From Mycolicibacterium goodii (lineage in GTDB: Bacteria > Actinomycetota > Actinomycetes > Mycobacteriales > Mycobacteriaceae): a stretch of 64,000 bases of DNA. The notes beneath the pieces are model-generated. The model searched no databases. It had not been told where the DNA came from and was given only the letters and a program-made list of their open reading frames with translations. The DNA is taken from contig NZ_CP092364.2 in assembly GCF_022370755.2 (NCBI RefSeq), forward strand, positions 6,262,001-6,326,000. The letters are read 5' to 3'. Positions 38,560-54,820 of this stretch are shown here, piece after piece. The position numbers and the translations under genes were made by a program. The stretch's first letter is position 1; every line of letters begins with the position of its first letter.

Positions 38560-40459
38560 CGGTCTCCGGCTTTCCCCCGGGTTTCCTGATCGCGAGCACA
38601 AACGGACCGTGGTCGGACACGTCGAACCTCGGATCGTCGAACAATGCCGAGTCCAGTTCGACGTGGTACCGGCGCACGTTGGGTTGGTTGGGATACACGT
38701 CGGAGGCCAGGCGCAGCGTGTAGGTGTTGTTGGCGCCGTGACGCATCAGGAACACCGTCGGCGGCTGCCACGGCAGTTCGTCGAGTGCGGCGATGAAGTC
38801 GTCGGCCGAGCCGAGCGTGGCCCAGCCCTCGATCGCGGCGGCGCGCTTGTCGAACTGCGCGAGCGGGTTGGCGTAGTGCGAGGTGAGCCCCTGGAATCCG
38901 TAGTACGGGTAGAAGGACAGGAAGCTGTAGTCGGCCGTGAGCACCACGGTCTGGTTGCGGGGGACGCCGGTGACCTCGAGGATCCTGGCGTCGACCTCGC
39001 GGTAGTAGCGCTCGGCGCCCGGTGGTCGGCGGTCGGCGCGCTGGCCGGTGCCGTCGGTGTCGGTGTAGGCGACGTTGATGTCGGGTCGCAGCACGTCGGG
39101 GATGTCCTGGCTGAACGTGACGGCGCCGATCGCACCGACCGCGGTCGCGGCGGCGACGATGCGGCGCGCGGTCTGTTCCTGGTAGCGGCGCGCGATCGCG
39201 AGCGTCGCCTCGATGAACCCGAACGCGCCTGCCGTCGTGAGGAGCACGGTGAGCGTGGGCTGCAGGCGGAAGGACAGCAGCGTGGTGCCTGCCAGTGTGG
39301 TGAGCATCGACAGCAGCGACCACGCGTACACCGCCAGCACGGCCACCGCGAGTGCTCCGGCGCGCGTCGAGGTGCGGGCGCGCACCACCAGCCACACGGT
39401 GCCGAGCATGCACAGCGCGCCGTGCAGGGTCAGACTCAGCATCGGGAAGTGTAGCTCTGCGCCGGCATCGGGCAGGTAGTGCTGTGCGGTTCCGGAATCG
39501 GCCGGTTCGCCGCGCATCGCGGCCAGCAGGTAGGGGCCCCACGTGATGAGCGCGATGGCACCGGAGATCACCGCGATGACCGCGAGCCGCAGCAGCGGGT
39601 CGATGTGCCTGCGGGCCACGGCCACGCACAGCGCCATGATCGTCAGCGTGAATGCCGCGTACGCCAGCAGCAGCGTGTAGAACAGCGCTGCGACGCCGAG
39701 GAAGATGCCGACGCCGATGATCGCGGCCCAACCGCCGCCTCGGGTACGCGCGCCGTCGCCGGCCGTGCTCCTCGCGTGCGCACGAAGCCCGGACCATGCG
39801 AGCACGAACACCGGCGGCAACAGCACGGTGATGATCGCGGCATACGGCTCGGTGGAGGCGTACGCCAGCATCGCCGCGGTGCTCGCGGCGGTCGCGACCA
39901 GTGCGTACTCGAACCGGATCATCGCCGCCCACAACACAAGTGCGAGTGCGACGGCGATGGTGATGGACACGATCGACCAGGGTTTGAACATCTCCCACGC
40001 CGGCGTGCCGGTGGCCGCGGCGATCCGGCCGCCCAGCCAGAACCACCCCGCGGGATAGAACGGCGGCAGGCCGATGTAGGTCATGTCGTGCAGACCGGGG
40101 CTGTCGGTGAGGCGGGTCAGGTACTCGGTGCGGAACTGCTGGTCGACCGACACCCCGAACAGGTAGAGCTTGGTCGCACCGAGCGGCATCGCGAGCGTCA
40201 CCACCGAGAACGCCGAGATGAACGCAAGCGCACCCAACCGCGCCAGTGTCCTGCGGCCACGGCGCCAGAGCAGCCCCGACGCGAACAAGCCTGCCAGACA
40301 ACCGAATTGGCCCACCGTGGTGAGCGCGTGCAGCTGATTGGAAGTGTTGTAGGCGGGCCACTCGACGCGGGCGATCGCCACGATCGCCACGCCGGCGACG
40401 GCCGAGGCCATCAGCACGGCGAGCGCCATCTGGCCGAGAACCCTGGCCGCCACCGGCAT
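38549..40459 (-). CDS. aftA: Arabinofuranosyltransferase AftA (primes galactan)
   Basis: GT-C membrane enzyme that transfers the first arabinofuranose from decaprenylphosphoryl-arabinose onto galactan. The 636-aa protein contains [39 protein letters not shown] and the conserved soluble end [23 protein letters not shown] 40459 overlaps the dprE2 TGA (ATGA); the longer frame to 40540 would run into dprE2. The order dprE2-aftA-embCAB is as in Mtb. Confidence 0.95.
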
Positions 40460-41223
40460 CAGATGGGGAGCTTGCGGAAGATGGGCCGCGGAATGTGCCG
40501 CAACACCATCATCACGTACCGGAATGCGCCTGGCGCCCAAACCAGTTCCTTGCCTTTCGCAGACGCGGTGACCGCGAGGTCGGCCACGTACTCCTTGTCC
40601 ACGGTCAGCGGGGCCTCTTTGACATGTGCGCTCATCCGGGTGCGTACCTGGCCGGGGCGGATCACCAGCACGCGCACGCCGAACTCGCGCAGCGCTTCGC
40701 CAAGGCCGAGGTAGAAGCCGTCGAGGCCGGCCTTGGTGGAGCCGTACACGAAGTTGGAGCGGCGTACCCGCTCACCGGCGGCCGAGCTCATCGCGATGAT
40801 CTGCCCGAACCCCTGTGCCCGCATCTTCTCGCCGAGCAGCACGCCCACCGACACCGCGGCGGTGTAGTTGACCCCGGCGATCTGCACGGCCTTGCGCTGG
40901 TTCTGCCACAGCTCCTCGGCGTCGCCGAGCAGCCCGAACGCGACGATCGCCACGTCGACATCTCCGCCGGCGAACGCCTGCTCGATCACCGCCGGGTGGC
41001 TGTCGGTGTCGAGCGCGTCGAAATCGATCACGTCCACCGCGCTCGCACCGGCGTTGCGCATCTGCTCGATGGCCGCGTCGCGGCCGGGATCTCCCGGCAG
41101 CGCGGCCAGCACGATGCGCGCCGACGCGTTGCGCAGATAGCGCTCACAGATCGCCAGCCCGATCTCGGAGGTGCCGCCGAGCAGCAGGATCGTCTGGGGG
41201 TTACCTACGGCGTCGAACACCAT
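40459..41223 (-). CDS. dprE2: DprE2, decaprenylphosphoryl-2-keto-erythro-pentose reductase
   Basis: NADH-dependent short-chain dehydrogenase that reduces the keto intermediate made by DprE1 to decaprenylphosphoryl-arabinose. It has 254 aa, the same as Mtb. The nucleotide motif is [13 protein letters not shown] and the catalytic pair lies in [11 protein letters not shown], with [13 protein letters not shown] carrying the serine. Unlike Mtb, dprE1 is not directly upstream: furA-katG and a hairpin intervene, so dprE2-aftA-emb probably start from a promoter in 41224-41303. Confidence 0.95.
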
Positions 41224-41352: not shown

Positions 41353-44068
<2,716 letters not shown>

Positions 44069-45602: not shown

Positions 45603-46931
45603 TCACGACGCCAGCACGGGCTCCTGTTCCTCGACCGCCGGGCGGCGCAGGAAAATCTGGAGCAGGGCGCCTGCGAGCGCGCAGGCCGACATCACGAAGA
45701 AGCAGATGATGTAACCGCGGTGGGCCTCCCAGCCGCCGCCGACGGCGATCAGCCTGCCCATCAGCAGTGGCGCGATGCCGCCGCCGATGAACATCGCCGT
45801 GGTGATGATCCCGTTGGCCGTCGATACGGCGCCCTCGGGTGCGGCGTCGGACGCGGCGGCGTAGTAGATGGGCCACACGGCGTTGGCGACCACACCGAAC
45901 GCCAACTGGATGACGACGACGAGCACCGACGACGTCGCGAAATAGAAGCACGCGACGCTGATGGCCATCCAGATGCCGCAGATCATGATCGTGGGCTTTC
46001 GGCCGATGACGTCGGACAGAGTGGGCCACAGGATCTGCCCCAGGACGCCGGTGAACGCGAACACGACGCTCAACCCGGCCGATTCCGCCAGTGACAACCC
46101 GACGACGTTGTAGAGGTATGCGGGCAGCACGACGTTGATGCCCATGTAGACGACCTGGGTGAGCAGCGTCGTGAGCGCGGTCAGGTTGATGCTGCGGATC
46201 TTGAAACACGCCGTGATCAGGCCCTTGCCGCCGGAGGCCGCGCGCGCCTCGTCACCCTCGGGCGGGGTGAGGCCCTTGGCGGCGATGTCCTCGTACAGGG
46301 TCTCGATGCGCTCCGCGGTCGAGTAGCGGCCCCAGAAGATCATGAGCGGCACCGCGACGATGAGGCCGAGGAACAGCGCGTAGGACCAGTTGTCGGGTCC
46401 GAACGCGGCGATCACCACCGCTGCTGACAGACCGCTGAGCAGCGATCCGACCGGGTAGCCGGTGTGGTGGGCGCCCAGTGCGAAGCCGCGCCGCTCCTTG
46501 GGCCACCATTCCGCGGTGTTGCTGACGCCGACCGGCTCACCCCATCCCGCGCCGAGGTTGACGCCGACGCGCAGCGCGATGAACGCCGCGGCGTGCGAGC
46601 TGACTGCCTTCAGGCCGGAGATGAAAGACAGTGCGGTGTAACCGATCACGAGCGGAACCTGGAAGCGTGCGCGCTTCCAGCCGCCGCCGTACCGGTCGCT
46701 GAGGGTCGAACCGGGGATCGCCAGCACCGCGAGCGAGATCATGATGAGCGAGGCGATGGCACCCCAGGTGTCGGGGCTGAAGTCGAAATGCTCGGAGATG
46801 GTGGGGCCGAGCCGCAGGATGATCTCGCGGTCGTAGGCGTTGAGCACCCAGATCAGCCAGCACACGGCCAGTGAGATCCAGGAATACTTGTGCGTGTTGC
46901 GCAGCGCGCCTCTGCGCGAGCCGATTCTCAT
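45603..46931 (-). CDS. MFS transporter of the SMP-30 operon
   Basis: About 442 aa with 12 predicted helices. Typical MFS signatures are present: [14 protein letters not shown] after helix 2, [16 protein letters not shown] in helix 5, and [12 protein letters not shown] in the second half. It is probably an importer of a small organic or sugar acid, judging from the neighbouring lactonase and catabolic genes; this is inference. ATG 46931 follows AAGGA at good spacing and 25 bases after the SMP-30 stop; the frame extends to 46985. Confidence 0.87.
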
Positions 46932-46956
46932 GTGGATGTCCTTGGGGTAGAGGCGA

Positions 46957-47859
46957 TCAGGCGCCGAAGCGGGGTTCGGGAACACCGCGAACGCCGAGGC
47001 CGCGGATGGCGAACAAACTGCCGCGCAGTTGCCCGTCCTCGGGGAATCGCGGCAGTGGCGGGCGCGCCATCGACGTCACGTAGAGGACGTCGAGGTCCGG
47101 TCCGCCGAACATCACGCTGGTGGGTTTGAGGACCGGGAAGTCGATGACGTGGTCGACGGTGCCGTCCGGCGCGTAGCGGATGATCTTGCCGCCGTACACC
47201 AATGCCTGCCACAGATGACCGTCGGCGTCGACCGTGGCGCCATCGGCGGCGCCGCCCCCGCTGGTGTCGACGCGGGCGAACGTGCGCCGGTTGGACACCT
47301 TGCCTGTGTCGAGATCGTAGTCGTAGCACCAGATCTCACCGGTCCACGTGTCGCAGAAGTAAAGTGTCCGTCCGTCGGGGCTCCAACACGGGCCGTTGGA
47401 GACCGTGATGCCCTCGTCGAGAATCTGCAGTGTGCCGTCCGGGCTGTAGCTGTACAGCTTTCCGCTCTGCGACTCCTCCAGGGTGTCCATCGACCCGAAC
47501 ACGAACCGGCCGCGCTTGTCGACCTTCCCGTCGTTGAGCCGGTTGCTGGGCAGGTCGCGCTCCAACTCCAGCACCTCGGTGAGGTCTCCGGTTTCGAAGT
47601 CGACTCGCCACAAGCCGTTTTCGAGTGTGGCCAGCGCGCCGGAACCGTCACGCAGAAGCGCCATCGAGCCGATCTTCTCCCGTACGTCCCATGCCCGGAT
47701 CTGGGAGCCGTCCGCGGTCGCGCGGAAGATGCGGCCGTCGGCGCTGTCGAGCCAGTAGAGCAACTGTTGCTCGGCGTCCCACAGCGGTCCCTCACCGAGG
47801 GTGGTCTTGAGATCGGCCACGACGCCGATCGAGTAGTCGCGGTTGATCGCGTTGCCCAT
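46957..47859 (-). CDS. SMP-30/gluconolactonase-family lactonase
   Basis: Six-bladed beta-propeller metal-dependent hydrolase, 300 aa. Likely metal ligands: Glu in TLGEGPLWD, Asn in SNRLNDGKVD, Asn in TVSNGPCWSPDG and Asp in GAADGATVDADG. Family members open sugar or other lactones. ATG 47859 (MGNAINRDYSIG) is chosen to place the first ligand near the N-terminus; the frame runs to 47949. It is the first gene of a leftward unit with the MFS gene and faces the LacI gene across a 232-base control region. Confidence 0.88.
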   Translation of the reverse strand: MGNAINRDYSIGVVADLKTTLGEGPLWDAEQQLLYWLDSADGRIFRATADGSQIRAWDVREKIGSMALLRDGSGALATLENGLWRVDFETGDLTEVLELERDLPSNRLNDGKVDKRGRFVFGSMDTLEESQSGKLYSYSPDGTLQILDEGITVSNGPCWSPDGRTLYFCDTWTGEIWCYDYDLDTGKVSNRRTFARVDTSGGGAADGATVDADGHLWQALVYGGKIIRYAPDGTVDHVIDFPVLKPTSVMFGGPDLDVLYVTSMARPPLPRFPEDGQLRGSLFAIRGLGVRGVPEPRFGA

Positions 47860-47892
47860 GGCTGGGAACGCTAGGTCGGGCTGAAGATGTTC

Positions 47893-48046
47893 AGCAACGT
47901 TAAGTTGTGATCTTGGACATTTCCGGACTTCTGACGTGGCGCCTCCCACGGAACGGCCGCGTTTTCCCCGGGAAGCCCCGGCTCGGCCGGAGGTCGAAAA
48001 CCAAAATCGACTTAACGTTGCTTAACGATTCGGATCACACTTAACG
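47893..48046. promoter_or_regulatory. Divergent control region with four CTTAACG boxes
   Basis: Three direct CTTAACG heptamers start at 48011, 48021 and 48040, and one inverted copy (CGTTAAG) is at 47898-47904. The 13-mer AGCAACGTTAAGT at 47893-47905 is the exact reverse complement of 48010-48022. Spacings of 10 and 19 bases put the three direct boxes on nearly the same helix face. They are candidate sites for the adjacent LacI regulator, controlling both the SMP-30 unit and the LacI/MFS side. Confidence 0.65.
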
Positions 48047-48091
48047 TCGGGACACCAGGGCGTCGGCAACGTCGCAAGCAGGGGAGGTGAC

Positions 48092-49153
48092 ATGGTGAAC
48101 GCAGAAGTCCCGGCACGGCGGCAGCGACCCGCGCGGGTCTCGGCTGCCGACGTGGCACGAGCTGTCGGCGTGTCACCGGCCACTGTCTCCTATGTCATGA
48201 ACGGACGGGCCGGCGTCTCCGCACAGACCCGCGCGAAGATCCTCGAAGTGGCCGAGGAACTGGGGCACATCTCGAGCGCGCGGGCGGACCGGCTCCGGTC
48301 CCACCAGACGCGCGTGATCGGCCTGATCCTGACCGATATCGCCAACCCCTTCTACACCGAGATCGCGGCGGGCACGATCGACGCCGCCCGCGCCCGCGGG
48401 TACGAGGTGTTCCTCGCCCACACGCAGGAGGATCCGCAGACGCTGCGGTCGATCGTCGACGCGATGATCGCGCGCCAGGTCGACGGCGTCGTCATCACCG
48501 TGCTGCATCCCGACGACGGTGAGGTGATCCGCTCGCTACGCAGCGCGCACATCCCGCTGGTGCAGTTGTCGCGGCGAATCCAGCGCATCGACGCCGATTT
48601 CGTCGGCATCGACGACCGTGCTGCGGCATCGGAAATGATGGAACACGTTGTCTCGCACGGATACCAGGACATCGTCACCGTCGTCGGGCCACGCACGTCG
48701 AGTGCGTCGGCCGCCCGCGAAGAGGGTTTCATCCGCACGGCCGAATCGCACGGCATCCGGACCGTGGCGGCCCAGCGCATCAGCACGTACCTGAGCGAGC
48801 GCGGCGGCTACGAGGCCGTCGAGCAGGTGCTGGCTCGCAAATCGCTGCCGCGCGTGATCGTGTGTGGCAGCGACGTCATCGCGCTCGGCGCCATCAGCGC
48901 ACTGCGGGAACGCTCGCTCAACGTGCCCGACGACGTCGCCGTCACCGGCTTCGACGGCCTCTATCCCGGACCGCTGGTGGAGCTCACGACGATCAACCAG
49001 CCACGACGTGAAATGGCCGAGCAGTCGATCGAACTGCTGACCCGCCGCATCGAGGGAGCGGGGGGCTCCTACCAATCGGTGTTGCGCGCGCACCAACTGC
49101 GCATCGGAACCACCTGCGGTTGCCCGCGAATGCGGCCGCACCTGGCCGCCTGA
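48092..49153 (+). CDS. LacI-family transcriptional regulator
   Basis: A 353-aa repressor-type protein. The helix-turn-helix is at about residues 16-40 (VSAADVARAVGVSPATVSYVMNGR split by the turn), followed by the hinge and a periplasmic-binding-protein fold (VIGLILTDIANPFYTEIAAG, VDGVVITVLHP, VAVTGFDGLYPGP). The C-terminal CGCPRM cysteines are unusual for the family and worth noting. ATG 48092 is preceded by GGGGAGGTGAC. It likely senses the substrate or a pathway intermediate and controls both arms of the catabolic cluster. Confidence 0.9.
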   Translation: MVNAEVPARRQRPARVSAADVARAVGVSPATVSYVMNGRAGVSAQTRAKILEVAEELGHISSARADRLRSHQTRVIGLILTDIANPFYTEIAAGTIDAARARGYEVFLAHTQEDPQTLRSIVDAMIARQVDGVVITVLHPDDGEVIRSLRSAHIPLVQLSRRIQRIDADFVGIDDRAAASEMMEHVVSHGYQDIVTVVGPRTSSASAAREEGFIRTAESHGIRTVAAQRISTYLSERGGYEAVEQVLARKSLPRVIVCGSDVIALGAISALRERSLNVPDDVAVTGFDGLYPGPLVELTTINQPRREMAEQSIELLTRRIEGAGGSYQSVLRAHQLRIGTTCGCPRMRPHLAA

Positions 49154-49217
49154 GCCCCGGCGACACCCACACCAGAATCATGACGAGGTCCCCGAGGGGC
49201 CTGGAAGGAGCATTGTC

Positions 49218-50495
49218 TTGGACAGGCTCATCTTTCGTAAGCTGATGCCGCTGCTGATCGCGGCGTACATCATCGCGTTCATCGACCGGACGAACATCGG
49301 GCTCGCCAAACACCATCTCGAAGTCGACCTCGGAATCTCCGCCGCCGCTTACGGTTTGGGTGCCGGTCTGTTCTTTCTGGCGTATTCGCTGTGTGAAGTG
49401 CCCAGTAACCTGATCATGCACCGGATCGGTGCGCGGATCTGGATCGCCCGCATCATGGTCACATGGGGCCTGCTGTCGGCCGCCATGGCGTTCGTGCAGG
49501 GTCCGGCGTCGTTCTACGTGCTGCGGATCCTGCTTGGCGCCGCCGAGGCCGGCCTGTTCCCTGGCGTGATGCTCTACCTCACCTACTGGTTCGCGCGCGA
49601 TCAACTCGCGCGGGCCAACGGCATCTTCCTGGTCGCGGTGTGTCTGGCCAACATCGTCGGTGCACCGCTCGGCGGAGCACTGCTCGGCATGGACGGTGTG
49701 CTCGGCTGGCACGGGTGGCAGTGGATGTTCGTCGTGGAGGGATTGCCCGCCGTGCTGCTCGCGGCCGTGGTGCTCAAGGTCCTGCCCAACGGTCCGCTGG
49801 AGGCCAAGTGGCTGGAACCGGCACAAGCACGTGCGCTCGTCGACCGTCTGGAACGCGAGCGGGCCGAGGGGGCCGCGGCGTCGGGCACCCACTCGTTTGC
49901 CGGGGTGTTCCGCGACAGGCAGATCCTGCTGGTCATCGCGGTGTACTTCACGCATCAGATCGCGGTGTACAGCCTCACCTACTTCCTGCCCGGCATCATC
50001 GGCGGATGGGGTGAGATGTCCGATCTGACCATCGGTCTGCTCACGGCGTTGCCATGGGTCGCGGCGGCCATCGGCACGCTGGTCCTGCCGCGTCACGCCA
50101 CCGACGGCCGCCGGTCGCGGTTGCTGCTGTTCGGTGGGATGGCGGCGATGGTGGTGGGATTCGTCGTCGGTGCGGTCGCCGGACCGGCGCTCGCGCTGAT
50201 CGGGTTCTGCATCGCGGCGTCGACGTTCTTCGTCGTGCAGTCGATCCTCTTCACGGTCCCGGCGTCGCGGCTGACCGGTGCCGCCCTCGCGGGCGGACTG
50301 GCCCTGGTCAACACGCTCGGGATCCTCGGCGGGTTCGTCGGCCCGTTCGTGATGGGCCTGCTGGAGTCCATGACCGGCAACCCCGTTGCGGGACTGTGGT
50401 TCGTTGTCGCGCTGCTGGTCGTCGGCACCGCGGTCAGCGTCACCCTCAAGGTCCGCGGCGCACCCCAACCCGAACTGAAAGGAGTGAAAGCATGA
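49218..50495 (+). CDS. MFS transporter, anion:cation symporter (ACS) type
   Basis: A 425-aa transporter of the ACS family, which imports sugar acids, phthalates and related organic anions. It starts with the family-typical LMPLLIAAYIIAFIDRTNIGLAK, then FFLAYSLCEVPSNLIMHRIGARIW and LGAAEAGLFPGVMLYLTYWF. The start codon is TTG 49218, supported by GGAAGGAG seven bases upstream. Its TGA overlaps the ATG of the dehydrogenase gene, so uptake and catabolism are coupled. Confidence 0.9.
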   Translation: MDRLIFRKLMPLLIAAYIIAFIDRTNIGLAKHHLEVDLGISAAAYGLGAGLFFLAYSLCEVPSNLIMHRIGARIWIARIMVTWGLLSAAMAFVQGPASFYVLRILLGAAEAGLFPGVMLYLTYWFARDQLARANGIFLVAVCLANIVGAPLGGALLGMDGVLGWHGWQWMFVVEGLPAVLLAAVVLKVLPNGPLEAKWLEPAQARALVDRLERERAEGAAASGTHSFAGVFRDRQILLVIAVYFTHQIAVYSLTYFLPGIIGGWGEMSDLTIGLLTALPWVAAAIGTLVLPRHATDGRRSRLLLFGGMAAMVVGFVVGAVAGPALALIGFCIAASTFFVVQSILFTVPASRLTGAALAGGLALVNTLGILGGFVGPFVMGLLESMTGNPVAGLWFVVALLVVGTAVSVTLKVRGAPQPELKGVKA

Positions 50496-51529
50496 GCGAC
50501 GCACGCATCCTCGTCGTGGGCGCGGGCGCGATCGGCGGTGTCACCGCCGCGCACCTCGCACGGGCCGGGCGGGACGTGACGGTCCTCGATGCCAACGCCG
50601 AACACGTCCGGTTGATGAACTCACCGGGCCTGAAGTTCGACGAGCTGGGCGAGATCAGCCACATCGAGATCACCGCCGTCGACACCCCGACCGCGCTCGA
50701 AGGACGATTCGACTTCGCGCTGGTGGCCCTCAAGGCCCCGTATCTGGAGTCGGCACTTTCACCGCTGGTCGCGGGCGATCTCGTCGACACGTACGTCTCG
50801 CTCGGAAACGGTTTGGTGCAGAGCACCATTCAGGAGATCGTGGGCACCGAGAGGTTCGTGGTCGGTATCACCGAGTGGGGCGCGACGAACTTCGGGCCCG
50901 GCCACGTCGCGCAGACCACCGTGGCCCCGTTCGTGATCGGCGAGGTCGACGGCAGCCTCAGCCCGCGTCTCGAAACGCTGCGGGACGTGCTTTCGGTGGC
51001 CGCCGAGGTGCACGTGTCCACCGACGTCATGAACCAGGTGTGGACGAAACTGCTTCTCAACAGCACCTTCTCGGGCCTGGCCGGCGTCGCCGGCATGCTC
51101 TACGGCGAGATCGCCGCAGACGCACTCGGCCGCACGATGGCATATCACGTGTGGACCGAGTCCTACGACGTCGCCCACGCGGCCGGTTTCGAACTCGACG
51201 CGCTCATCGGGATACAACCGCACGATCTCGTGGTGCGGTCCGCAGGTGACCGGGTACGCGCCGATGCGGCACTGGAGGTCCTGATGAGCAAGCTCGGCGC
51301 CACCAAGGCGTCGATGCTGCAGGACCTCGAACGCGGTGCGACCACCGAGGTCGACGTCATCAACGGCGGCGTGTGCGCCACCGCGGCCAAAGCCGGTGTC
51401 CCCAGCCCGTTCAACGCCCGCATCGTCGAACTGGTCCACGAGTGCGAGCGAGGCCTGCGCACACCCGGCCGCGAAACGCTCGAAGCACTCGCCGAGGTTT
51501 CCGCTCAACAACAAGGAGTCAACCCATGA
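50492..51529 (+). CDS. Ketopantoate-reductase-like (ApbA/PanE) dehydrogenase
   Basis: A 345-aa NAD(P)-dependent 6-phosphogluconate-dehydrogenase-like enzyme. The nucleotide motif is ILVVGAGAIGGVTAAHLA, and the catalytic lysine lies in WTKLLLNSTFSG. E. coli PanE has KLVINCAIN; here the second substrate-binding Asn is Ser, which argues against ketopantoate as substrate. The position in a catabolic operon suggests oxidation of a hydroxy acid to the keto acid used by the following BKACE; this is inference. The start follows AAAGGAG and overlaps the MFS stop. Confidence 0.85.
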   Translation: MSDARILVVGAGAIGGVTAAHLARAGRDVTVLDANAEHVRLMNSPGLKFDELGEISHIEITAVDTPTALEGRFDFALVALKAPYLESALSPLVAGDLVDTYVSLGNGLVQSTIQEIVGTERFVVGITEWGATNFGPGHVAQTTVAPFVIGEVDGSLSPRLETLRDVLSVAAEVHVSTDVMNQVWTKLLLNSTFSGLAGVAGMLYGEIAADALGRTMAYHVWTESYDVAHAAGFELDALIGIQPHDLVVRSAGDRVRADAALEVLMSKLGATKASMLQDLERGATTEVDVINGGVCATAAKAGVPSPFNARIVELVHECERGLRTPGRETLEALAEVSAQQQGVNP

Positions 51530-52452
51530 ACGACAAGGTCATCATCACGTGCGCCGTCACCGGCGGCATGACCGTGCCCGCACAGAGCAGGGCGATCCCG
51601 ATCACCGTCGACGAGATCGTGCGGGCCGGCGTCGAGGCCGCCGAGGCCGGCGCCGCGGTGCTGCACGTCCACGTGCGAGAAGAGTCGACCGGACGGCCGG
51701 TCGCCGACCTCGATCTGTTCGAGCGCGTGCTCACCGAGCTCAAGAAGAACACCGACGCCGTCATCCAGCCCACGACCGGTGGCGGCCGCGGCATGACCGT
51801 GGCGGAACGGGCGTCGGTCCTCAAGTTCCGGCCCGAGATGGCCACGTTCAACGCGGGCAGCTTCAACTTCGGCCTGTTCCCGGTCGCGGCGCGGGACCTG
51901 CCGTTCGCCGAGTGGGAACGTGAATACCTCGAAGGCACCACGGATTACATCTTCAAGAACACCTTCGCGGACATGACCTACATGGCCGAGCAGATGCGCC
52001 AGTCCGACACCCGCCCCGAGATCGAGGTGTACGACGTCGGCCACATCTACAACCTTGAGCAGCTCGTCTCCGACGGTGTCCTGGAACCGCCGTTCAACCT
52101 GCAGTTCGTGCTCGGTGTCCTCGGCGCCAACGCCGCCGAACCGGATCAGCTCATCCACATGCTGCGCACCGCCGAGCGGGTGTTCGGCCGCGAATCGTTC
52201 ACGTGGTCGGCGGCCGGCGTCGGGTATCGCGGCGAGTTCGGTCTTGCGGCATTGTCGTTGATCCTCGGCGGCAACGTGCGCGTCGGCCTCGAGGACAACC
52301 TGCGGATCACCAGGACCGAGAACGCGACCTCCAACGCGCAACTGGTGCGCAAAGCCGTCGACCTCGCGGCGACGTTCGACCGCACACCGGCCACCCCCGA
52401 CGAGGCCCGTCGGTTCCTGGGGCTCAAGGGCGTCGCCGCCGTCGGTTTCTGA
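51526..52452 (+). CDS. Beta-keto acid cleavage enzyme (BKACE, DUF849)
   Basis: Zinc-dependent TIM-barrel enzyme of 308 aa. Family members react a beta-keto acid with acetyl-CoA to give acetoacetate and a new CoA ester; substrates range widely (for example 3-keto-5-aminohexanoate, dehydrocarnitine). Zinc ligands His47 and His49 are in AAVLHVHVREE, and IQPTTGGGRGMT and ASFN-type NAGSFNFG segments are typical. ATG 51526 follows AAGGAG and overlaps the dehydrogenase stop. It ends four bases from the convergent GtrA-like gene. Confidence 0.9.
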   Translation: MNDKVIITCAVTGGMTVPAQSRAIPITVDEIVRAGVEAAEAGAAVLHVHVREESTGRPVADLDLFERVLTELKKNTDAVIQPTTGGGRGMTVAERASVLKFRPEMATFNAGSFNFGLFPVAARDLPFAEWEREYLEGTTDYIFKNTFADMTYMAEQMRQSDTRPEIEVYDVGHIYNLEQLVSDGVLEPPFNLQFVLGVLGANAAEPDQLIHMLRTAERVFGRESFTWSAAGVGYRGEFGLAALSLILGGNVRVGLEDNLRITRTENATSNAQLVRKAVDLAATFDRTPATPDEARRFLGLKGVAAVGF

Positions 52453-52879: not shown

Positions 52880-54310
52880 TTAGCGAGGTGTTCGCAGAAG
52901 TACGTCTTCCAGCACGCCGCGTAACGCCTCGACCGCAGGCCGGAATGCGTGTTCGGCCGGGGCGCCGAACCCGATGATGATGCCGTCGGGGTCGGGGATG
53001 TCCGGGTGCGCCAGCGGGTGACGCATGATCGCCAGGCCCTGCAGCGCGATCCCGGCCTCGCCGGCGTGGCGCAGCACCTCGGGTTCGGCACCGTCGGGCA
53101 GGGTGAGCAGCATGTTGACGCCCGCGGCCAGGCCGCGGATGCCGACGTCGAAGTCGGCCAGCGCCGACACCAGATGGTCGCGGCGCCGCCGATAGCGGTT
53201 ACGCATGCGCCGGATGTGGCGGTCGTAGCCGCCCGTGGCGATGAAGTCGGCCAGTGTCAGCGCCGTGATGGCGTCGACGTGGTACTGCTGGCCGCCTGCC
53301 GCGGCGATCACCGGTTCGATCAAGGTCTGCGGCAGCACCATCCATCCCACCCGCAGTGTCTGCGCCATGCTCTTGCTCGCCGAACCCAGGTAGGCGACGC
53401 GGTCGGGATCCAGGGACTGCAGTGCTCCGACGGGTTGGCGGTCGTAGCGGAACTCGCCGTCGTAGTCGTCGTCGAGTACGTACCCGCCGGTGCGGCGTGC
53501 CCATTCCACGGCCTCACTGCGCCGCGACGGGTGCAGCGGCATGCCGTGCGGGCTGTGGTGTGCCGGGGTGAGCAGCACCGCGGGCGTGTCCAACGTGTCG
53601 AGATCGCTGATCACCGCGCCGTGTTCGTCGAGGCCGATCGGTGTAGTGGTGATGCCGAGCGTGGCGAGGGCGTCGCGAAAGATGAAGAGCCCGTAGGCTT
53701 CCACCGCGATGGGTCGGTTCGTCCCGAAGACCTTGCCGAGCAGTTCGACGCCGTTTCGGACGCCGGAGCAGATCACGATCGACTCCGGTGTGGTGCGCAC
53801 GCCCCGGACACGACCCAGGTATTCGGCCAGCGCCGAACGCAGTTCGGCGGGCCCTCGCGGATCGCCCATGCGCAGCGCGGACGCCGGCGCGTTGGACAAC
53901 GCCCGACGCGCCGATGCGAGCCACGCCGTGCGCGGGAACTCCGCGACGTCGGGTGAACCGGGCATCAGGTTGTGTGTGGGCGTGCCGGCGATGCGTAGCG
54001 GCGGTGGTCCGGGCCGTGCAGCCAGTTGTGGGGCCGGGGCGCGCGCGACCCACGTGCCCGCACCCTGGCGTGAGGCCAGCCAACCTTCGGCGACCAGTTC
54101 GGCGTACGCCTCGGCCACGGTGTTGCGGGCCAATCGCAGATCGGCGGCCAGCACACGCGACGGCGGGAGAACGGTTCCGGTGGCCAGGCGCCCCGAGCGG
54201 ATGCCGTCACGCAGGGCGTTGATGAGTTGTTCGCGGGCGGTGCGGCTGCCCGGGGTGATGACGGTGTGCAGCTCGAGGTCCCGAGCGCCAGAATTGGCCC
54301 GCGAAGTCAC
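52880..54310 (-). CDS. MocR/PdxR-type regulator (GntR HTH plus aminotransferase fold)
   Basis: A 476-aa chimera: an N-terminal winged HTH of the GntR type (REQLINALRDGIRSGRLATGT, LRLARNTVAEAYAELVAEGW) and a class-I aminotransferase-like domain with YVLDDDYDGEFRYD and the PLP-lysine motif YLGSASKSMAQTLRVGW. These regulators bind PLP-linked ligands. GTG 54310 places the HTH at the start; the frame reading on to 55219 is a shadow. It is divergent from the AhpD-like gene, 48 bases away, which is its probable target. Confidence 0.9.
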   Translation of the reverse strand: MTSRANSGARDLELHTVITPGSRTAREQLINALRDGIRSGRLATGTVLPPSRVLAADLRLARNTVAEAYAELVAEGWLASRQGAGTWVARAPAPQLAARPGPPPLRIAGTPTHNLMPGSPDVAEFPRTAWLASARRALSNAPASALRMGDPRGPAELRSALAEYLGRVRGVRTTPESIVICSGVRNGVELLGKVFGTNRPIAVEAYGLFIFRDALATLGITTTPIGLDEHGAVISDLDTLDTPAVLLTPAHHSPHGMPLHPSRRSEAVEWARRTGGYVLDDDYDGEFRYDRQPVGALQSLDPDRVAYLGSASKSMAQTLRVGWMVLPQTLIEPVIAAAGGQQYHVDAITALTLADFIATGGYDRHIRRMRNRYRRRRDHLVSALADFDVGIRGLAAGVNMLLTLPDGAEPEVLRHAGEAGIALQGLAIMRHPLAHPDIPDPDGIIIGFGAPAEHAFRPAVEALRGVLEDVLLRTPR

Positions 54311-54358
54311 CGCTACATTGAACCATCTGGACGGGCCTTTGCTGGATAGCGTGAACGC

Positions 54359-54820
54359 ATGACACAAACACTCGAATCCACCGAACGCGTCAAGATCTAC
54401 AAGGCGTTTCCCGAGTTCTACGACGCGATGATGAACCTGTCGGCCACCTCGGCGAAGGACTTCGACCACACCATCGGCGAGCTGGTGAAGATCCGCGCAT
54501 CGCAGATCAACCGCTGCGGGTTCTGCCTCGACATGCACGCCCGTGATGCCCGCAAGCAGGGCGAGACCGAGCAGCGACTCGCGCTGATCGCGGCGTGGGA
54601 GGAGGCCGGCGATCTGTTCACCGAGCGTGAGCAGGCGGCTCTCGCGCTCACCGAGGCGGTGACGGAGATCAACCGCGGCCCGGTGTCTGACGACGTCTAC
54701 GAACGTGCGGCCGCGGTGTTCAGCGAACGCGAACTCAGTCAGTTGATCGCGATGATCGTGACCATCAACGCGTGGAACCGCATCAACGTCACCGTGAAGA
54801 TGCCGTTCCCGCGCCGCTGA
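54359..54820 (+). CDS. AhpD-like carboxymuconolactone decarboxylase-family protein
   Basis: A 153-aa protein with the AhpD redox motif: Cys53, Cys56 and His60 in INRCGFCLDMHARDA, preceded by KIRASQ. Such proteins act as peroxidase partners or reductases; a decarboxylase role is less likely because the CxxC is intact. The ATG is six bases after TAGCGT (54347-54352), a possible -10, giving a leaderless transcript. It is divergent from the MocR gene, a common pairing suggesting direct control. Confidence 0.88.
   Translation: MTQTLESTERVKIYKAFPEFYDAMMNLSATSAKDFDHTIGELVKIRASQINRCGFCLDMHARDARKQGETEQRLALIAAWEEAGDLFTEREQAALALTEAVTEINRGPVSDDVYERAAAVFSERELSQLIAMIVTINAWNRINVTVKMPFPRR

Follow-up and report, generated by a model that had tools for sequence, protein, structure and literature searches.

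We examined a stretch of 64,000 nucleotides (hereafter the window) from Mycolicibacterium goodii (contig NZ_CP092364.2, positions 6,262,001 to 6,326,000), the source genome being a single contig of 6.74 Mb. The system under study is a cluster of six genes: a major facilitator superfamily (MFS) transporter (MFS1), an SMP-30-type lactonase, a LacI-family regulator, an ACS-type MFS transporter, a dehydrogenase related to ketopantoate reductase (PanE) and a beta-keto acid cleavage enzyme (BKACE), whose closest named relative is an M. goodii protein (96% identity). All six, listed in an earlier note made from this DNA alone, are open frames with Pfam matches above curated cut-offs (Table 1); for MFS1 and the lactonase, the starts are ATGs chosen within longer listed open reading frames. 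As described there, ATGA overlaps join the ACS gene to the PanE-like gene and the latter to the BKACE gene, and the cluster lies between two genes recognised by profile, DprE1 (NF053785, 811 bits) and a GtrA-family gene. The gap between lacI and the ACS gene is 64 bases. We take dprE1 and the GtrA-family gene to be adjacent in M. tuberculosis.

Table 1. Genes and putative operators of the cluster, and candidate hydrolase genes of related loci. Positions are those of the window, or of a comparison locus where a locus handle (L) is given.
Feature	Position	Strand	Evidence or remark
MFS transporter 1 (MFS1; deoxyribonate MFSb type)	45603..46931	-	Pfam match above curated cut-off; identities to related clusters
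SMP-30/SGL lactonase, probable deoxyribonolactonase	46957..47859	-	PF08450, 272.7 bits
Putative LacI operator	47894..47904	-	Exact GCAACGTTAAG; 33 bases before lactonase ATG
Putative LacI operator upstream of lacI	48011..48021	+	Further CTTAACG half-sites at 48021-48027 and 48040-48046
LacI-family regulator	48092..49153	+	PF00356, PF00532 and PF13377 above cut-off
ACS-type MFS transporter (deoxyribonate MFSa type)	49218..50495	+	TTG start; Pfam match above cut-off
Ketopantoate-reductase-family (PanE-like) dehydrogenase, proposed NAD-dependent deoxyribonate 3-dehydrogenase	50492..51529	+	PF02558 and PF08546
BKACE, proposed 2-deoxy-3-ketoribonate cleavage enzyme	51526..52452	+	PF05853, 329.9 bits vs cut-off 24.8
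PaaY/gamma-carbonic-anhydrase-like hexapeptide protein	L011:10908-11396, L015:1668-2198, L019:6124-6678		Directly after BKACE
PaaY/gamma-carbonic-anhydrase-like hexapeptide protein	L017 and L025:10947-11444, L026:10982-11425		Directly after BKACE
3-Hydroxyisobutyryl-CoA-hydrolase-like (HIBCH-like) protein	L030:8387-9454	-	NF004127, 430.6 vs 274; between BKACE and lactonase
HIBCH-like protein, 39% relative of that in L030	L072:11711-12793	+	Agrobacterium; follows glycerate kinase

The composition of the cluster matches the known oxidative pathway for deoxyribonate. As set out in the available parts of Price et al. 2019 (PMC6365646), P. simiae depends for growth on deoxyribonate on a single putative operon that encodes a short-chain dehydrogenase/reductase (SDR), a BKACE, a lactonase and a pair of MFS transporters; acetoacetate and glyceryl-CoA are the products to be expected, and a glycerate kinase is required. 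The earlier note's view of the cluster as undescribed and without a known pathway set is therefore not supported. With the oxidative pathway of P. simiae and Paraburkholderia it shares the lactonase, two MFS transporters (as in P. simiae), a dehydrogenase and a BKACE, and it differs as follows: a PanE-family dehydrogenase replaces the SDR, the BKACE belongs to a distinct clade, a LacI regulator takes the place of the GntR regulator of P. simiae and the AraC regulator of P. bryophila, and the cluster contains no glycerate kinase (comparison with the same parts of PMC6365646). From sequence comparison, the cluster is best read as this known route with a different dehydrogenase family, BKACE clade and regulator, and it probably serves the uptake and breakdown of 2-deoxy-D-ribonate (or a stereoisomer) and the corresponding lactone.

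The lactonase and both transporters also resemble those of a Klebsiella cluster. In the parts of PMC6365646 that describe it, K. michiganensis has the lactonase, both MFS transporters and the glycerate kinase and runs the chemistry through CoA esters: the SDR dehydrogenase is absent, and a CoA-synthetase, dehydrogenase, thiolase and CoA-transferase stand in place of the free-acid dehydrogenase and BKACE. The order in K. pneumoniae (L049), namely CoA ligase, CoA-transferase, FabG-like dehydrogenase, thiolase, MFS, SMP-30, MFS and glycerate kinase, equals that given there for K. michiganensis. Likeness to deoxyribonate genes was measured against the L049 sequences, with identities of 62% for the lactonase, 66% for MFS1 (to the second MFS) and 56% for ACS (to the first). 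When the L049 proteins were used as queries, the window lactonase and ACS each ranked first in the source genome (405 bits, next 126; and 505.8 bits, next 301), and MFS1, searched in the reverse direction only, matched one place in the L049 record at E ≤ 1e-40. ACS is also 59–64% identical to the MFS following SDR and BKACE in Burkholderia and Caballeronia, where each of the five records that contain an ACS relative at E ≤ 1e-80 also has a BKACE no more than ~300 bases from it; the order SDR-BKACE-ACS is seen in L074 and L075.

We surveyed 297 genomes of the genus. The lactonase (E ≤ 1e-90) occurs in five and a BKACE (E ≤ 1e-40) in seven, and all five lactonase genomes fall within the seven (hypergeometric 1.1e-9, with kinship ignored and thresholds of our own choosing), which argues that the association is not due to chance. 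Lactonase, MFS1, LacI and BKACE are clustered in each of the five. The PanE-type cluster is present in two, the source genome and M. wolinskyi (G245, locus L010), and an SDR-type cluster in the other three (G199, G177 and G056, corresponding to L028, L029 and L030), in the order LacI-SDR-BKACE-MFS1-lactonase, with a glycerate kinase in two of the three. These SDR-type clusters share with the window the lactonase (73–81%), MFS1 (78–81%), LacI (47–48%) and an identical operator word, and differ in their SDR dehydrogenase, a BKACE at 46%, the lack of ACS and their chromosomal places; by sequence look, L028 and L029 adjoin aro genes. Among 401 genomes of the family, 6 have a close relative of the window BKACE, as do 5 among 394 genomes of the class (the source and M. 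wolinskyi being counted in both), a patchy distribution.

To the window BKACE clade we assigned 21 distinct loci (the window, L010–L026, L042, L043 and L045), after removing L027, L044 and L046–L048 as duplicates (L026 and L044 are one record); several contigs are short, and absences in these counts are weak. Co-occurrence elsewhere, on which the earlier note had made its proposal depend, was found: PanE lies directly upstream of BKACE or one gene away in 14 of the 21. A close LacI (at least 64% identity, window included) is present in nine, an ACS transporter in seven, a 3HCDH-type dehydrogenase nearby in five, and SMP-30 and MFS1 in three. A glycerate kinase stands beside the BKACE in three (Rhodococcus L026 and L045 and the metagenome-assembled genome L019), the Rhodococcus sister operons having the order LacI-MFS-PanE-BKACE-glycerate kinase. 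In M. wolinskyi, genes for 3-oxoacid CoA-transferase A and B directly follow the BKACE, ahead of the GtrA gene (L010:10905-12340). Metallo-beta-lactamase-fold proteins resembling AttM/AiiA occur near the BKACE in four loci (L014:9019-9924, L016:8097-8966, L017:7870-8739 and L025:7896-8792; that of L016 scores 174.8 bits against a cut-off of 390) and perhaps stand in for the SMP-30 lactonase. Further afield, a Rhizobium SDR/3HCDH/BKACE cluster (L073) has nickel-dependent lactate racemase genes, larA, larB and larC-like, between lactonase and glycerate kinase (L073:10431-14468); a hydroxy-acid racemisation step may be part of this variant.

The two arms of the cluster also appear to share an operator. 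The 233 bases between the lactonase and lacI hold CTTAACGTTGC twice, once in each orientation, along with all four CTTAACG and both AACGTT words of the window; at up to one mismatch, GCAACGTTAAG has these two matches in the 64 kb and no others. Across the intergenic stretches of 12 clusters (nine PanE-type, three SDR-type), AACGTT marks 22 sites, 21 of them with the full 11-base CTTAACGTTGC, which is present in 21 of the 78 fetched loci (overlapping loci included). The centre-to-centre spacing is 118–119 bases in four of five two-site loci and 162 in the fifth. L028 and L029 have a further site, placed between lacI and the glycerate kinase gene that diverges from it. The case for the operator rests on this conservation, since the chance estimate from the window alone is modest: two GCAACGTTAAG matches at up to one mismatch arose in 5 of 100 shuffles, and four CTTAACG words in 4 of 100. 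A search of 24 intergenic stretches for perfect CG-centred palindromes returned none in that of the window, the operator being imperfectly palindromic. The window LacI is 64–89% identical to that of eight sister PanE-type loci and 47–48% to the SDR-type LacI; despite the latter figure, the recognition segment ATVSYVMNG is identical in the window protein and those of the SDR-type clusters. The single LacI-controlled catabolic unit that the earlier note proposed is supported.

While the operator is common, the arms have different histories, because the lactonase and BKACE place the window differently. The lactonase tree puts the window and M. wolinskyi within the SDR-type group of mycobacteria (98/97 and 99/96) and leaves the PanE-type Streptomyces locus L013 outside it; in the tree of the BKACEs, a 100/100 split parts the SDR-type clade from the PanE-type one, where the window stands beside M. 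wolinskyi and L042. The identities agree: the window lactonase is 81% identical to that of L028 and 64% to that of L013, and the BKACE 46% and 77%, respectively. The BKACE tree (with its very long L032 branch) and the LacI tree (in which long branches meet) were used only for the split between the two cluster types. On this evidence, the cluster is a mosaic of a lactonase-MFS1 arm and a LacI-ACS-PanE-BKACE arm under a common operator.

The PanE-like enzyme has the fold family, nucleotide motif and catalytic Lys, Asn, Ser and Glu of the ketopantoate reductase PanE/ApbA. We take the substrate and catalytic residues of E. coli PanE to be Asn98, Lys176, Asn180, Asn184, Ser244 and Glu256; five of these six are kept in the window enzyme, and at the position of Asn184 it has Ser194, a changed substrate residue that had been pointed out before and that is Ser in all 19 family rows, the window included. 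Lys186, Asn190, Ser274, Glu286 and Asp33 are invariant in 30 rows. An acidic residue at the Asp33 position, after the second strand, usually favours NAD over NADP. The window enzyme thus differs from PanE/ApbA in the Asn184-to-Ser change, the invariant Asp33 and its linkage to a BKACE. With the L029 SDR as query, the best match in the source genome reached only 110 bits and 37% identity, so that no close relative is present, and the cluster itself has no SDR. Because the PanE-like enzyme is the sole dehydrogenase of the cluster and the genome has no close SDR, we assign it the oxidation of the beta-hydroxy acid, an activity inferred from its place in the cluster. In the literature searched, no paper came up on PanE, deoxyribonate and M. 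smegmatis in combination, and six M. smegmatis locus tags gave no match.

In the BKACE, H47, H49, E167, R252 and E256 are invariant in 16 rows and the zinc ligands are kept; the catalytic residues of BKACE15, given as E171 and R254 in the available part of PMC11961710, map to E167 and R252. The window BKACE scores below the cut-off of NF053538, the equivalog model for the 3,5-dioxohexanoate BKACE (345.5 vs 430), whereas the SDR-type BKACE of L029 passes it (533). The source genome has only two PF05853 matches which, together with the lack of a close SDR relative, leaves the PanE-like enzyme and the window BKACE as the candidates. The second match lies at G000:C1:328252-328965 (103.5 bits), with one TAG within the matched stretch.

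In the proposed mechanism, the two MFS transporters would import deoxyribonate or its lactone and the SMP-30 enzyme would open the lactone; the PanE-like enzyme, with NAD+, would oxidise C3 to give 2-deoxy-3-ketoribonate, and the BKACE would move C1 and C2 to acetyl-CoA, yielding acetoacetate and glyceryl-CoA. Hydrolysis of glyceryl-CoA, phosphorylation of glycerate and activation of acetoacetate would fall to enzymes encoded elsewhere in the genome, and LacI would repress both arms through the two CTTAACGTTGC sites. The earlier note had sketched the same flow (import, opening of the lactone, oxidation of a hydroxy acid to a beta-keto acid and cleavage by BKACE to acetoacetate and a CoA ester), which the gene sets and their linkage support, and had left the substrate unnamed; 2-deoxyribonate or one of its stereoisomers is what the evidence favours. 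Glyceryl-CoA is suggested as cleavage product because a glycerate kinase follows the same BKACE clade in L026, L045 and L019, and acetoacetate as the other product fits the CoA-transferase genes that follow the BKACE in M. wolinskyi. Together, these products imply 4,5-dihydroxy-3-ketopentanoate and hence a 2-deoxypentonate, whose stereochemistry is not thereby fixed. We infer the substrate, each activity, the use of NAD+ and the repressor role from homology, gene linkage, operator conservation, mosaic trees and residue conservation.

Several observations weigh against this assignment. For the pathway itself, Price et al. left the oxidised carbon unfixed and the cleavage without direct evidence, as stated in the available parts of PMC6365646. 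Since the window BKACE is only 43–47% identical to the SDR-type clade and the pocket motifs differ (TGGM vs TGAI and QPTTGG vs NITTGG, window vs SDR-type), a related substrate is possible. No PanE match was found in 7 of the 21 loci (L014 and L019–L024), which weakens a strict pairing of PanE and BKACE; L014 carries a 3HCDH. Lactonase and ACS relatives at 54–56% occur in clusters without BKACE (P. oryzihabitans L070 and Acinetobacter L054), and similarity of this degree is thus not enough to settle the substrate. The best glycerate kinase of the source genome is unlinked, with only 44% identity, and the 11-base operator is absent from its locus (L069). Finally, the PanE-like enzyme exceeds the cut-off of TIGR00745, the model for 2-dehydropantoate 2-reductase (173.7 vs 141.35).

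One alternative is a cluster with the same chemistry on a different substrate, either a further stereoisomer of the 2-deoxypentonate or a related beta-hydroxy acid or lactone, to which the BKACE and PanE-like enzyme are tuned and for which the lactonase-MFS1 arm was borrowed from a deoxyribonate cluster. The 100/100 split of the BKACE clades, their pocket motifs, the separate history of the lactonase arm and the lactonase and ACS relatives in other settings all favour it. Against these, the glycerate kinase beside the BKACE clade limits the acyl product in those three loci to glyceryl-CoA and hence the substrate to a 2-deoxypentonate, ACS resembles the transporter that follows SDR and BKACE in Burkholderia, and both cluster types have the same operator. 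We regard this alternative as rather unlikely.

A second alternative, that the cluster serves catabolism of pantolactone and pantoate, with the lactonase opening pantolactone and the PanE-like enzyme running the ketopantoate reductase reaction in reverse, draws on the TIGR00745 score and the kept catalytic Lys, Asn, Ser and Glu. Ketopantoate, however, is an alpha-keto acid and not of the BKACE substrate type, the deoxyribonate-type transporters and the glycerate kinase are left unexplained, and the Asn184-to-Ser change is family-wide. Moreover, the window enzyme need not make pantoate, because another PF08546 gene of the source genome scores higher (112 vs 92 bits), and we consider this reading very improbable. 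Least credible is the possibility, raised in the earlier note, that the BKACE acts on dehydrocarnitine or else on some other betaine and that its neighbours are unrelated: the BKACE family covers such substrates, but this leaves no place for the lactonase, the sugar-acid-type MFS pair or the glycerate kinase, and the lactonase co-occurs with a BKACE in all five of the genus genomes that have it.

Returning to the deoxyribonate route, its glyceryl-CoA hydrolase is listed as unknown by GapMind in the available part of PMC9007349, and the related loci offer leads, not findings, for this step. A PaaY-like hexapeptide protein directly follows the BKACE in 6 of the 21 loci (Table 1), in L019 and L026 between the BKACE and the glycerate kinase; these proteins are closest to gamma-carbonic anhydrase and PaaY models, all under the cut-offs. 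HIBCH-like genes lie within or beside the SDR-type clusters of L030 and Agrobacterium L072. The window cluster has neither a PaaY-like nor a HIBCH-like gene, and the source genome encodes elsewhere a 62% relative of the L030 HIBCH-like protein. A wide search with the latter returned 173 plasmid records, mostly ordinary relatives, so the family is not specific to the deoxyribonate pathway. The combined proposal, that actinobacteria use a second pair (an NAD-dependent PanE-family deoxyribonate 3-dehydrogenase with its own BKACE clade) and also that the hydrolase is the PaaY-like or the HIBCH-like protein (L030, L072), is speculative, and we hold it tentatively.

With the deoxyribonate reading, a LacI regulon of mycobacteria and other actinobacteria that has so far been uncharacterised would gain a substrate open to testing. 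Deoxyribonate is an oxidised relative of the DNA sugar, and its use, shown only for proteobacteria in the literature searched, would extend to soil actinobacteria. The dehydrogenase appears to be swappable (SDR, PanE-type and perhaps 3HCDH-type) while transporters, lactonase and operator remain, and a new activity is proposed for the ketopantoate reductase family. The hydrolase leads, in turn, put concrete candidates to the step missing in GapMind (available part of PMC9007349).

By sequence look, a katG-like catalase-peroxidase and a Fur-family-like gene occupy positions 41353-44033 of the window on the far side of DprE1, so that the DprE1 region seems to carry extra genes on both sides; an SDR gene lies beyond this pair (40459-41223). 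Just past GtrA, the same inspection found a MocR-like regulator/aminotransferase frame and a divergent alkylhydroperoxidase-like gene (52880-54820).

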